Assembly (NCBI GenBank): GCA_020544565.1
Contig: CP078014.1
Coordinates: forward strand, 2,048,016 to 2,112,015
DNA length: 64,000 nt
Direction: 5' to 3'
Source of the DNA: Bradyrhizobiaceae bacterium
GTDB lineage: Bacteria > Pseudomonadota > Alphaproteobacteria > Rhizobiales > Xanthobacteraceae
Each line of letters opens with the position of its first letter. Positions within the stretch are counted from its first letter, which is position 1. The translations under genes and the position numbers were made by a program. Under the pieces are notes generated by a model, which was given only the letters and a program-made list of their open reading frames with translations, did not search any database and was not told the origin of the DNA. Below are positions 2,869-51,552 of this stretch, piece after piece.

Positions 2869-3055
2869 CGTCGATCTCCTCCGCGCGGGCGCCGCGCGCT
2901 CCGAAACTGCTGCATGGCCTTATAGGGGACGCGCCCGGTCGTTACAACGCGGGGCAAAGGCTCTTGAGAGCTAGGGTGCGGAGCAAATTTGTCAATGTAA
3001 CCATCAGGGAACGGGGTTAATGCCGGCCGTGGCGGCCATCCAGCGCATGCGGTTT

Positions 3056-3592
3056 TCAGCCGCGGCGACGGTAGGTGACGTAGGAGAAATCGGACGTATC
3101 GCCCTCGCCCGCGGCGTGGCGGGTACGCGCGACTTCGTCCCATTCGGCGGCATCCACCGGTGCCAGCCAGGTGTCGCCTTCCGGAGCGGCGTGCACTTCC
3201 GTCACCTCCAGGCGATGGGCGCGATCGCGACCCTGCGCGAAAATCTCCGCGCCGCCGATCACCATGATCTCAGTGACCAAACGCCGCAGCGCGTCGCCAC
3301 GGGCGACGTCGTAAGCGGCCTCCAGCGACGGCGCGATCACCACCCCCCGCGCCTGAAACTCCTTGTCGCGCGTCACCACGATGTTGGTGCGGCCCGGCAG
3401 CGGCCTGCCGATGGACATGAACGTCTTGCGACCCATGATGACGGGCCGGTTCAGGGTGATGGCCTTGAAGCGCTTGAGATCGGAGCGCAGGTGCCACGGC
3501 AACGCATTGTCGCGGCCGATCACGCCGTTGTCCGCGACCGCCACGACAAACACGATCTGCGGAAACGCCGCCGCCGGCGACGGCGCGCTCAC
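3056..3592 (-). CDS. folA: Dihydrofolate reductase
   Basis: It reduces dihydrofolate to tetrahydrofolate with NADPH, regenerating the folate oxidised by thymidylate synthase. The sequence shows the core motifs: [20 protein letters not shown], the catalytic acid in [13 protein letters not shown] (D38 in this numbering, equivalent to E. coli D27), the NADPH-binding [15 protein letters not shown], and VIGGAEIF. The best start is GTG at 3592, two bases into the last codon and stop of thyA (GTGTGA), giving 178 residues and tight translational coupling. The open frame continues far upstream through thyA in another frame, but that extension is a shadow. Length and motifs are normal for a chromosomal FolA. 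Confidence 0.93.
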
Positions 3593-46190: not shown

Positions 46191-47114
46191 TCAGTGCGAC
46201 GGGATCCCGATCCGCTTGATTTCCCATTGCAGCTCGATGCCGGAATTGTCCTTGACCCGCGCCCGTACGGTCTCGCCCAGCGTCTCGATGTCGTGGGCAG
46301 TCGCATCGCCGGTGTTGATGAGGAAATTGCAGTGCATTTCCGACACCTGCGCGCCGCCGACCTTGAGACCGCGGCAGCCGGCGGCATCGATCAGCTTCCA
46401 CGAACTGTGTCCCGGCGGATTCTTGAAGGTGGAGCCGCCGGTCTTCTCGCGGATCGGCTGCGCGCGCTCGCGATGGGCCTGCACCTCGGCCATCCGCGCC
46501 CGGATGGTCTCCGCATCGGCCGGCACGCCGCGATAGAGCGCGGAGGTGAAGATCACGGAGGTGTCCACGCCGCAATTGCGATAGACGAATTTCATCTCGG
46601 CGTTGGAGAAGGCGACGCGCGCGCCGGCGCGGGTGACGCCCCTCGCCTCCACCAGCACGTCCTTGGTCTCGCCGCCATTGGCGCCGGCGTTCATGCGCAG
46701 CGCGCCGCCGATCGAGCCGGGAATACCGAAATAGAATTCGAGCCCGGAGAGATTGGCCGCGGCCGCCGCTTCCGCCACGCGCTTGTCGAGGGCGGCGGTG
46801 CCGGCGCGCACCGTGTCGCCCGCGACCTCGATCGCGCCGAAACCGCGCGGCGACAGGCGGATCACCACGCCCGGCACGCCACCGTCGCGCACGATCAGGT
46901 TGGAGCCGACGCCGATGGTGTAAACGGCAATCTCGCTTGGCAGCTTCGACAGGAAATAGGCCAGATCGTCTTCGTCGGCCGGCGTGAACAGCACCTGCGC
47001 CGGACCGCCGACGCGAAACCACGTCAGCGGGCCGAGCGGCTCATTGGCGAGCAGACGCCCGCGCAGATCGGGCATTGCGGATTTCAGCGATGCAGAAATA
47101 TCGGGAAATGTCAT
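46191..47114 (-). CDS. murB: UDP-N-acetylenolpyruvoylglucosamine reductase
   Basis: MurB reduces UDP-GlcNAc-enolpyruvate to UDP-MurNAc with NADPH and bound FAD. The 307-residue type IIb-like protein has [20 protein letters not shown], the FAD motif [35 protein letters not shown], and the catalytic serine in GGSTFKNP. The final QWEIKRIG holds the conserved Glu. Its start codon is 7 bp from a repeat arm (47121 onward), with GAGG at the boundary as ribosome-binding site. The inserted nuclease element separates it from murC, so its transcription may depend on read-through. Confidence 0.95.
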
Positions 47115-47120
47115 TTGACC

Positions 47121-47497
47121 TCGTCATGGCCGGGCTTGTCCCGGCCATCCACGTCTTTCATTATTGCCCCATGGCAGGCGGATATGTCTACTTTCTGACC
47201 AACAAACCAAACGGGATCCTGTATGTCGGTGTAACGAATGATCTTGTTCGCCGCATCCACGAGCATCGCTCAGGAGAGGTCGAAGGCTTTACCCGCCGAT
47301 ATGGATTGAAGCGCCTCGTCTATTTCGAAAGATTCGACGATATCCGCGACGCTCTTCAACGCGAACACAATATCAAGCATTGGTCCCGTTCCTGGAAAGT
47401 CAGAAAGATAGCCATCGACAATCCCGATTGGAACGATCTCTACGAAACACTTTTATAGCCAAGACGTGGATGGCCGGGACAAGCCCGGCCATGACGA
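47121..47497. mobile_element. REP-like inverted-repeat element carrying a GIY-YIG nuclease gene
   Basis: The 377-bp unit is bounded by a perfect 37-bp inverted repeat: left arm 47121-47157, right arm 47461-47497. Each arm is itself a hairpin, GGCCGGG-CTTGT-CCCGGCC in the left arm. The right arm begins two bases after the nuclease stop codon. It sits between murB and murC, 7 bp from the murB start. The same arms occur without a gene at 51464-51552. Mobility is inferred from structure; target duplications are not evident. Confidence 0.65.
47171..47458 (+). CDS. Single-domain GIY-YIG nuclease
   Basis: The 95-residue product is almost only the GIY-YIG domain: GGYVYFLTNKPNGILYVGVT gives the two signature strands, NDLVRRIHEH holds the catalytic Arg, and ALQREHNIKHWSR holds the metal-binding Glu. 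All key residues appear present, so it should be an active nuclease of the UPF0213/YhbQ-like group, whose targets are largely unknown. An in-frame upstream ATG within the repeat arm (47125) would add the peptide MAGLVPAIHV; the ATG at 47171 begins the conserved domain. Base composition is clearly lower in GC than in the flanking mur genes, suggesting foreign origin. Confidence 0.85.
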   Translation: MAGGYVYFLTNKPNGILYVGVTNDLVRRIHEHRSGEVEGFTRRYGLKRLVYFERFDDIRDALQREHNIKHWSRSWKVRKIAIDNPDWNDLYETLL

Positions 47498-47517: not shown

Positions 47518-48924
47518 TCACTTATCCAACGCCTGCAATTCGCCCGGCAGCGCGTAGGCCCATTGCGAGATGCTGCCGGCGCCGAGGCAGATGACGAAAT
47601 CGTCGGGCTGCGCGATGGTGCGCACGATTTCGGCGAGCTTGTCCGCGCCCGGCAGCGGAACCACCTCGCGATGGCCGTGGGCGCGCAGGCCGAGCACGAA
47701 GGAATCGCGGTCGATGCCCGGGATCGGCGCCTCGCCCGCCGCATAGACATCGGCGACGATCACCGTATCGGCGTCGTTGAAGCAGGTGCAGAATTCCTCG
47801 AACAGCGATTGCAGGCGGGTGTAGCGATGCGGCTGCACCACGGCGATGACTTTACCCTTCGTCGAATCGCGCGCCGCCTTGAGCACCGCGGCGATCTCCA
47901 CCGGATGGTGGCCGTAGTCGTCGATGACGGTGACCCCGTTCCATTCGCCGGTGCGGGTGAAGCGCCGCTTGACGCCGCCGAAACCGGCGATCGCCCTGCG
48001 GATCGCTTCGTCGGAAATGCCGATCTCGTGCGCCACCGCGATCGCCGCCGTGGCGTTGAGCGCATTGTGGCGGCCGGGCATCGGCAGCACCAGATCGGCA
48101 ATCTCGTGGACTGCATGGCCCTTGCGATGCTGGAACGCCACCTTGAACGTCGAGCCGCCCTTGAACGGCGCGAGATCGACCAGCCGCGCGTCGGCCTGCG
48201 GGTTCTCGCCATAGGTGATGATGCGGCGATCCTCGATCTTGCCGACCAGCGCCTGCACCACCGGATGATCGATGCACATCACCGCGAAGCCGTAGAACGG
48301 CACATTCTCGACGAAATTCCGGAAGGCGTCCTGCACCGCCTCGAACGTCTTGAAATGATCGAGGTGCTCGGGATCGACATTGGTGACGATGGCGACGTCG
48401 GTCGGCAGCTTGAGGAAGGTGCCGTCGCTCTCGTCGGCCTCCACCACCATCCACTCGCCGGCGCCGAGCCGCGCGTTGGTGCCGTAGGCATTGATGATGC
48501 CGCCGTTGATGACGGTGGGATCGAGGTTGCCGGCGTCGAGCAGCGTCGCCACCATCGAGGTGGTGGTGGTCTTGCCGTGGGTGCCGGCGATGGCGATACA
48601 GCTTTTCAGCCGCATCAATTCTGCCAGCATCTCGGCGCGGCGCACCACCGGAATGCGCTGGCTCCGCGCCGCCATCAATTCCGGATTGTCGCGCTTGATC
48701 GCGGTGGACACCACCAGCACGTCGGCGCCGTTGACGTTCTCGGCCCTGTGGCCGACGCTGATCCTGATGCCCTTGGCACGCAGGCGGGCGACGTTGGCGT
48801 TCTCGGAAGCGTCGGAGCCCTGCACGGTATAGCCGAGATTGCACAGCACCTCGGCGATGCCGCTCATGCCGATGCCGCCGATTCCGACGAAGTGAATGGG
48901 TCCGATCTCGCGCGGCAGTCTCAT
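47518..48924 (-). CDS. murC: UDP-N-acetylmuramate-L-alanine ligase
   Basis: MurC adds L-alanine to UDP-MurNAc, the first amino acid of the stem peptide. The 468-residue protein has the N-terminal UDP-binding fold [19 protein letters not shown], the ATP loop [16 protein letters not shown], the central [10 protein letters not shown] and [10 protein letters not shown] motifs, and [13 protein letters not shown] in the C-terminal domain. The conserved start is [12 protein letters not shown] at 48924; the open frame runs up to 48972. It lies between a decayed repeat (towards murG) and the GIY-YIG element (towards murB). Confidence 0.96.
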
Positions 48925-48966
48925 GAGGGAGAACCTGTTGGTTGGCGTCAGGCCCGCGCGGATCGC

Positions 48967-49044
48967 GGACATCCGTCTTTTAACTGATTCAGACGGGATT
49001 GGGGGAAGGCGTGAACAGCCGGAACAAGTCCGGCCATGACGACG
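48967..49044. repeat. Degenerate copy of the GIY-YIG-associated inverted repeat
   Basis: The right half keeps CCGGAACAAGTCCGGCCATG and GACGACG, close to the arm consensus, with the small hairpin GCCGGA-ACAAG-TCCGGC. A weakly matching left half (ATCCGTCTTT at 48971-48980) precedes it. It fills most of the murG-murC gap and appears to be a decayed, gene-less pair. Confidence 0.5.
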
Positions 49045-51463: not shown

Positions 51464-51552
51464 CGTCATGCGCGGGCTTGACCCGCGCATCCACGTCTTG
51501 GCGATCTCCCAACAAGAAGACGTGGATGGCCGGGGCGAGCCCGGCCATGACG
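51464..51552. repeat. Gene-less pair of the GIY-YIG-associated inverted repeat
   Basis: The left arm 51464-51499 and right arm 51517-51552 are 36 bp each and imperfectly complementary. The right arm matches the arms of the 47121-47497 element except for a few bases. Only 17 bp lie between them, so this looks like a non-autonomous or internally deleted version. It lies in the murD-ftsW gap, 6 bp from the murD stop. Confidence 0.75.

Follow-up and report, generated by a model that had tools for sequence, protein, structure and literature searches.

The window, that is the whole stretch of 64,000 nucleotides analysed here, belongs to a genome of 4.13 Mb that is present as a single contig and is 98% complete. 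Between murB and murC, it holds a small unit in which a gene for a GIY-YIG nuclease, on the strand opposite to both neighbours, is enclosed by two copies of a palindromic repeat:

46191..47114, reverse strand: murB, neighbouring host gene
47121..47497, no strand: the whole unit, a head-to-head pair of CGTC-tagged REPs (REPIN-like) with a GIY-YIG gene replacing the usual spacer of about 25 nt
47121..47157, forward strand: left REP arm, with outward CGTC tag, stem ATGGCCGGG, loop CTTGT, tail CCA and extension CGTCTT
47171..47458, forward strand: gene for a single-domain GIY-YIG nuclease of 95 aa with an ATG start and conserved Y7, Y18, R28, H32 and E65
47461..47497, reverse strand: right REP arm, identical to the left arm in inverted orientation, with its tag outward
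47518..48972, reverse strand: murC, neighbouring host gene
49012..49040, reverse strand: lone REP from the family of the arms, degenerate with 3 mismatches
51465..51551, no strand: ordinary head-to-head pair without a gene, from the REP superfamily to which the arms belong

An earlier note on this DNA had described the two arms as perfect inverted copies that each form a hairpin, and had placed the right arm two bases behind the stop codon of a nuclease frame poorer in GC than the mur genes. Our analysis bears out this description: the arms are 37 nt each, 100% complementary and separated by 303 nt, and the isolated arm folds as DNA into a hairpin with a 9-bp stem, a 5-nt loop and a 3-bp foot, the latter being part of the CGTC tag paired with the inner extension. 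The fold energies of the arms are -13.2 and -14.0 kcal/mol (z about -6), and none of 200 shuffled sequences was equally stable. The right arm does begin two bases after the stop of the frame at 47171-47458, and the GC content of this frame is 0.486 as compared to 0.668 for murB, 0.656 for murC and 0.670 for the window. It is the only open reading frame between the arms, running from the ATG at 47171 to the stop at 47458, and it encodes one GIY-YIG domain (PF01541, profile match with E=1e-16). The longest version of the frame starts with a TTG at 47075 and runs through the left REP (47075-47158), with the peptide MAGLVPAIHV; since the ATG at 47171 agrees with the alignment of the family, longer annotated starts are likely wrong. 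A bestrophin-like gene (PF14023; 45402-46175, opposite strand) is located between ddl and murB, and a relative of it adjoins murB in many members of the genus.

The arms are CGTC-tagged REPs. According to PMC3733652 (Di Nocera, De Gregorio and Rocco 2013), these elements carry CGTC at one end, an 8-9 bp stem beginning with AT, a loop of 4-5 nt and a CCA tail, and the arm, which reads CGTC / ATGGCCGGG / CTTGT / CCCGGCCAT / CCA, has this organization. The published definition has an unpaired tag, whereas three tag bases are paired in the fold of the window arm. The repeat is abundant: the core and its near variants, with up to 3 mismatches, match the genome 165 times (89 forward, 76 reverse) as compared to 2 matches for the core read backwards, and in the window alone the 28-nt core occurs three times at the same tolerance. 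Since 0.00 occurrences were expected from 100 shuffles of the window, chance is excluded. A sample of 30 exact genome copies, the left arm of the window included, revealed a head-to-head partner with CGTC outside for 24 of them, again counting the window unit, so that the high copy number and the prevalence of head-to-head dimers that mark the superfamily are both found in the source genome. Measured between the CCACG tails, the spacers of these 24 pairs are 20-28 nt long in 22 cases; one further pair has 122 nt, and the window unit has 311 nt. Like the window arms, most ordinary pairs have the inner edges CCACGTCTT / AAGACGTGG or sequences close to them. Head-to-head pairing with short spacers and the similar inner edges lead us to regard the window unit as a REP pair (REPIN-like) that has the nuclease gene as its spacer. 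Ordinary pairs are mostly heterodimers in which only one half matches the nuclease-flanking arm, whereas the window unit is a perfect homodimer. In PMC3733652, CGTC REPs are stated to predominate in alphaproteobacteria, with Bradyrhizobium and R. palustris among the organisms named, and to have spacers mostly of 20-100 bp; they "apparently lack a dedicated transposase", and their mover is left open there.

The nuclease has its catalytic residues intact and is under purifying selection. Y7, Y18, R28, H32 and E65 are conserved to at least 98% among 51 site representatives, and both the fold and the conserved Tyr, Tyr, Arg and Glu residues of the GIY-YIG superfamily are present. In four sets of REP-linked nucleases, the median dN/dS ratios (pairs limited to dS between 0.05 and 1.5) are 0.055-0.10, with synonymous sites near saturation in some of them; at 0.115, the ratio of the unlinked FVYVLG set shows that purifying selection also acts outside the linked clades. 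The structure of the protein, a single domain of 95 aa, was modelled with confidence (pLDDT 91.4). The best PDB match of the model is the UPF0213 protein BH0048 (1ZG2; E=1.4e-4, 34% identity), to which the nuclease also has a profile match (E=5.3e-10), and there are weaker matches to Slx1 of the Slx1-Slx4 complex (best E 0.035). A search of NCBIfam with the nuclease gave only a weak match below threshold. Slx1 is described as a cutter of branched DNA, and an Slx1-like fold with such an activity would suit an enzyme that acts on REP hairpins or cruciforms. One clade (type C; L187 and L204), which is flanked by CGTCATTGCGAG...GAAGCAATCC repeats, is devoid of both Trp residues of an otherwise conserved K-x-W-x-R-x-W-K stretch, a candidate specificity region.

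The linkage between CGTC REPs and this subfamily of GIY-YIG nucleases is not confined to the window. For each nuclease gene, we scored the best ungapped inverted match between the 150 bp on either side, and windows shifted along the same loci, which are mostly coding sequence, served as controls. A score of at least 14 was reached in three sets of loci: (i) 61 of 80 loci of named genomes, which were taken from at least 484 relatives, as compared to 3/595 controls; (ii) 41 of 81 loci of close relatives and of the own genome (77 and 4 loci, respectively; frames of UvrC length and L002 were left out, as were a few matches that were weak, partial or at the end of a contig) as compared to 2/314 controls; and (iii) 44 of 69 loci across the Pseudomonadota as compared to 0/261 controls. 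The last set comprises 29 loci selected automatically and 40 selected by hand before the flanks were known (with E values of up to about 4e-30 and between one and three loci from each genome); in this phylum, the nuclease profile has matches in 100 of 299 genomes and in 55 of 154 genera. A test for hairpins alone discriminates less well: stems of at least 8 bp flank 43/69 Pseudomonadota loci and 40/261 controls, and for stems of at least 9 bp the figures are 9/69 and 17/261. The first two sets overlap by 3 loci, leaving 158 unique ones. Among these, inverted flanks are absent from other GIY-YIG subfamilies (FVYVLG type 0/16, MWYVYILRS type 0/6, a third small group 0/3) and present at 98 of the remaining 132 loci, with the long-branch row L188 left out; by the flank score, the other 34 loci of the linked subfamilies are devoid of them. 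The 98 scored arms are head-to-head or probably so in 83 cases and tail-to-tail or probably so in 6, and 9 are unclear. The earlier note had made its case depend on GIY-YIG genes elsewhere lying between such arms, and this expectation holds in all three sets.

These data also bear on the possibility that REP pairs accumulate by coincidence beside dispensable, low-GC genes. The nuclease gene is indeed of low GC for its window, and the shifted controls lie mostly in coding sequence; against this stand the near-absence of inverted flanks from the controls, their lack in the other GIY-YIG subfamilies of the same genomes and the type specificity described below. Coincidence was therefore disfavoured on account of the controls and of the other subfamilies, and we consider it next to negligible.

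The own genome has six matches to PF01541. Three of them, L001, L003 and L004, have inverted REP flanks with scores of 27, 37 and 21; L005 (score 11) is accompanied by another repeat in direct orientation, the core of which matches the genome 49 times; L002 has no type-A REPs in a scan that covered type A; and one match is of UvrC length (697 aa). Three phage records match the nuclease partially, and 34 records of a plasmid collection match it. Twelve of the latter were read with flanks of 200 bp and without controls: six score at least 14 (N. gonorrhoeae, Azospirillum, Novosphingobium, Shinella, Sphingobium and Neorhizobium) and six score less (Planktothrix, Spirosoma, Sinorhizobium, R. tumorigenes, Aeromonas and Subdoligranulum), and in the low-scoring records except that of Subdoligranulum a similar palindrome is seen by eye within 200 bp. 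The N. gonorrhoeae record, which is filed as a plasmid and is of chromosomal size, has a related GIY-YIG gene without listed annotation (L257, 1501-1758) among GTCATTCCCGC-type palindromes; the match that was scored is another repeat, outside the REP-like palindromes that adjoin the gene. On plasmid AZO_p3 of Azospirillum lipoferum 4B, a related GIY-YIG gene (L258, 1486-1779) flanked by REP-like palindromes lies between sufB and sufC, providing another core operon with such an insert. Finally, a Pseudolabrys metagenome-assembled genome (L140) has two GIY-YIG genes of the same family on opposite strands about 1 kb apart (1783-2064 and 3001-3282), perhaps a duplicated or nested unit.

The type of CGTC REP is specific for the clade of the nuclease that it flanks. 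By homology of their outer flanks, the 158 unique loci were reduced to 78 independent sites, 51 of which have arms. Three lines of evidence support the co-specificity. First, protein identity and arm similarity are correlated over the 51 sites with a Mantel rho of 0.60, the best of 2000 permutations reaching 0.23. The arm is shared (similarity of at least 18) in 87-100% of pairs, depending on the band, if the proteins are at least 60% identical, in 26% of pairs at 50-60% identity and in 0-4% below 50%. Second, on a nuclease tree built from 96 columns, in which many forks are open, the eight REP types of 40 rows require 9 changes of type as compared to at least 17 in 500 shuffles. Third, the contrast is found between paralogues of one and the same genome, which share the arm in 5 of 40 pairs below 60% identity and in 7 of 7 pairs at or above this value; between genomes, the corresponding figures for different sites are 73/558 and 59/75. 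Since the contrast holds inside single genomes, it cannot be explained by kinship of the hosts. The match of arm and nuclease phylogenies, which the earlier note had proposed as a check, is thus strong.

It has been hypothesised for GTAG REPs (PMC3733652) that they are moved by Y1 transposases of the RAYT type. If RAYT or IS200-type enzymes also moved the REPs studied here, the GIY-YIG gene would be a mere passenger. In the own genome, we detected no match to Y1_Tnp (PF01797), and in all, 17 of the 19 genus genomes gave none, whereas type-A REPs are found in each of the 19 (3 to 120 matches). Moreover, a passenger would not show specificity clade by clade. RAYT-driven REPs were disfavoured because of the lack of a Y1 transposase match in the own genome, and the passenger explanation appears very improbable to us.

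The copy number of the REPs is related to the presence of the nuclease. In a comparison of the 19 genomes, with clade presence assigned by hand and p values that ignore kinship, the median number of type-A REPs is 73 if the cognate nuclease (strict clade) is present and 37.5 if it is absent (p=0.009), and for type B/B2 REPs the medians are 72 and 12 (p=0.005); if the A2 clade is counted in for type A, significance is lost (p=0.07). There are also populations that seem to be orphans: in G018 (L196-L200), 205 type-B REP matches are not accompanied by any type-B nuclease found at its loci, and the same holds for type A in G004, G005 and G010, with 46-76 matches each. To account for the REPs of these four genomes, one would have to assume that the gene was lost in the past or overlooked, or that related types contribute, and a simple dependence of the REPs on the nuclease is only partly supported. 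The orphan population of G018 would be useful for testing this dependence.

The same data can be read in terms of a domesticated guardian, a nuclease that removes or processes REP cruciforms in repair or replication or to limit the REP load, and that is linked to the repeats by selection without any movement. The SLX1-related fold, the strong purifying selection and the occupation of the same site in many Bradyrhizobium relatives would fit such a function, but a guardian need not reside inside a repeat pair, nor would one nuclease clade per REP type be required, and the REP copies are higher, not lower, with the nuclease present. We therefore regard a guardian role as rather improbable.

How stable are the units and the gene-free pairs at their sites? 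The nuclease was not matched at the murB-murC junction in any of 17 other genus members in which this junction was read; the gap is at most 5 bp in 10 of them and contains other sequence in 7. The nearest congener, with murB 91% and murC 95% identical, is devoid of the gene there. In named genomes, 16 of the 80 loci lie between murB and murC (Bradyrhizobium, Rhodopseudomonas, Nitrobacter, Rhodoplanes and others); at two of these loci, murC is preceded by several hundred additional bases. In the wider family, the nuclease is present in 5 of 28 further junctions, which come from the best 30 of 79 genomes with a MurB match and some of which look like genomes of the named set (the figures are the same for L363/L120 and L356/L115). 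One family member (L362) has a bare head-to-head REP pair at this site. The interval thus varies among relatives, with empty sites and one bare pair; an interval identical in all of them would have spoken against the mobile unit proposed in the earlier note. The spacing from arm to arm is exactly 344 in 9 of 24 loci listed, as expected of an inherited locus. The murB-murC copy may go back to an ancient insertion that was passed on vertically and lost in some lineages, although transfer or a new insertion could also account for the copy of the own genome; the distribution is equally compatible with a unit of great age that was lost repeatedly and with arrivals on more than one occasion.

Turnover is also seen for gene-free pairs. 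A type-A pair of the own genome (L376, about 654-812) lies in an intergenic gap that we take, from the proteins, to be that between groES and groEL. Among the nine of ten congeners that were readable at this gap, seven have other or degraded repeats as judged by eye (L402-L408), and two have no pair, the gap measuring 52 nt in L401 and 71 nt in L409. Another REP pair that is present in the own genome is missing at the corresponding position in six congeners. These differing gaps indicate that such pairs are gained, lost or replaced: at orthologous sites, a REP pair may be present, absent or substituted by another. The difference to empty sites includes extra bases outside the CGTC tags; no target-site duplication was seen, the relatives being too divergent to give a clean boundary. 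The putative groES-groEL gap is a natural site for comparing insertion boundaries.

That genera differ in having a bare or a gene-bearing pair between murB and murC would also be expected of a homing endonuclease that parasitises REP pairs by cutting their spacer and being copied in during repair, the REPs spreading by other means. The gene occupies precisely the spacer of the pair, so that, like a homing gene, it would disrupt its own target by inserting there, and GIY-YIG is a domain of homing enzymes (PMC1564403). Efficient homing should, however, leave most pairs occupied, the reverse of the few gene-bearing pairs among tens to hundreds of REPs per genome; the protein of 95 aa has one domain and no separate DNA-binding domain; and no other REP enzyme is evident in the own genome, which was tested for Y1 transposases. 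Homing is in our opinion unlikely.

The most economical reading of these observations, drawn by analogy with the RAYT enzymes, is that the nuclease spreads the REPs. We propose that the elements probably constitute a REP system in which a dedicated SLX1-like GIY-YIG nuclease disseminates its own REPs, a counterpart of the RAYT systems with an unrelated enzyme. The window unit would be an enzyme-bearing member of a REP/REPIN population: The small SLX1-like endonuclease, whose gene forms the spacer of two head-to-head REPs, may recognise REPs of its own type as hairpins or cruciforms and cut them at or near the CGTC foot. If both REPs of a pair are cut, the intervening element could be freed or copied; in this way, gene-free pairs would be disseminated in trans, and the gene-bearing pair would be spread more rarely. 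The role comparable to that of the RAYT nucleases, which the earlier note had suggested for the protein, gains support from the linkage and the co-specificity, from which we infer binding, cleavage, the copying route and a causal part in mobilisation. On these grounds, the nuclease is a strong candidate for the enzyme, missing so far, behind the spread of CGTC REPs.

It is tempting to go one step further, and we incline slightly to the broader view that there is a distinct and widespread class of minimal mobile elements in which GIY-YIG nucleases rather than HUH transposases drive populations of palindromes. On this view, every REP family would have, or have had, a cognate SLX1-like nuclease encoded in the spacer of one of its pairs; the families of other proteobacterial classes would probably be among them, and perhaps also the Neisseria dRS3-like and the cyanobacterial or Bacteroidota TGTCAT repeats. 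For CGTC REPs, this enzyme would take the place of the missing 'transposase'. If this is true, GIY-YIG nucleases would in addition serve a DNA repeat system as its only enzyme, and palindrome populations that have an enzyme of their own would have originated two or more times, from unrelated nucleases. A type-specific nuclease linked to the repeats by its gene makes the mover of CGTC REPs directly testable.

Among the literature matches listed, a set with preprints and most subscription papers outside it, we found no report that joins a GIY-YIG nuclease with REPs. PMC1564403 places GIY-YIG nucleases in homing, restriction, repair and Penelope-like retroelements. With the homing endonucleases (I-TevI type, phage Seg), the protein shares the GIY-YIG catalytic core and possibly a selfish spread; unlike those described, it has no added DNA-binding domain, its gene occupies the spacer of a REP pair rather than an intron, an intein or a cognate allele, and the arms are genome-wide repeats. 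It is possible that it is a free-standing homing enzyme of another kind. The best matches in sequence and structure are the small UPF0213 or SLX1-like GIY-YIG proteins, with the same fold and size as BH0048; the 1ZG2 entry names no function, and the MWYVYILRS-type genes of the genomes studied here are without REP flanks. Palindromic repeats from the same bacterial group, Br-REP1 and Br-REP2 of Bradyrhizobium japonicum, have been described in PMC5082802; the Br-REP1 consensus given there differs from the window REP, and the word endonuclease is absent from the main text. The repeats themselves correspond to the CGTC-tagged REPs of PMC3733652 in the tag, a 9-bp stem starting with AT, a 5-nt loop, the CCA tail and the predominance of head-to-head dimers. 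In that paper, no transposase gene was found to be flanked by CGTC REPs, whereas here a GIY-YIG gene lies between them and the REP type follows its clade. It is the REP/REPIN-RAYT (TnpA-REP) system that offers the closest parallel in organization: in both cases, an enzyme gene is flanked by palindromes of its matching type, and few enzyme genes are accompanied by many gene-free pairs. RAYT is a Y1 HUH transposase acting with GTAG REPs, whereas in a genome without a match to PF01797 the putative counterpart for CGTC REPs would be a GIY-YIG nuclease (PF01541).
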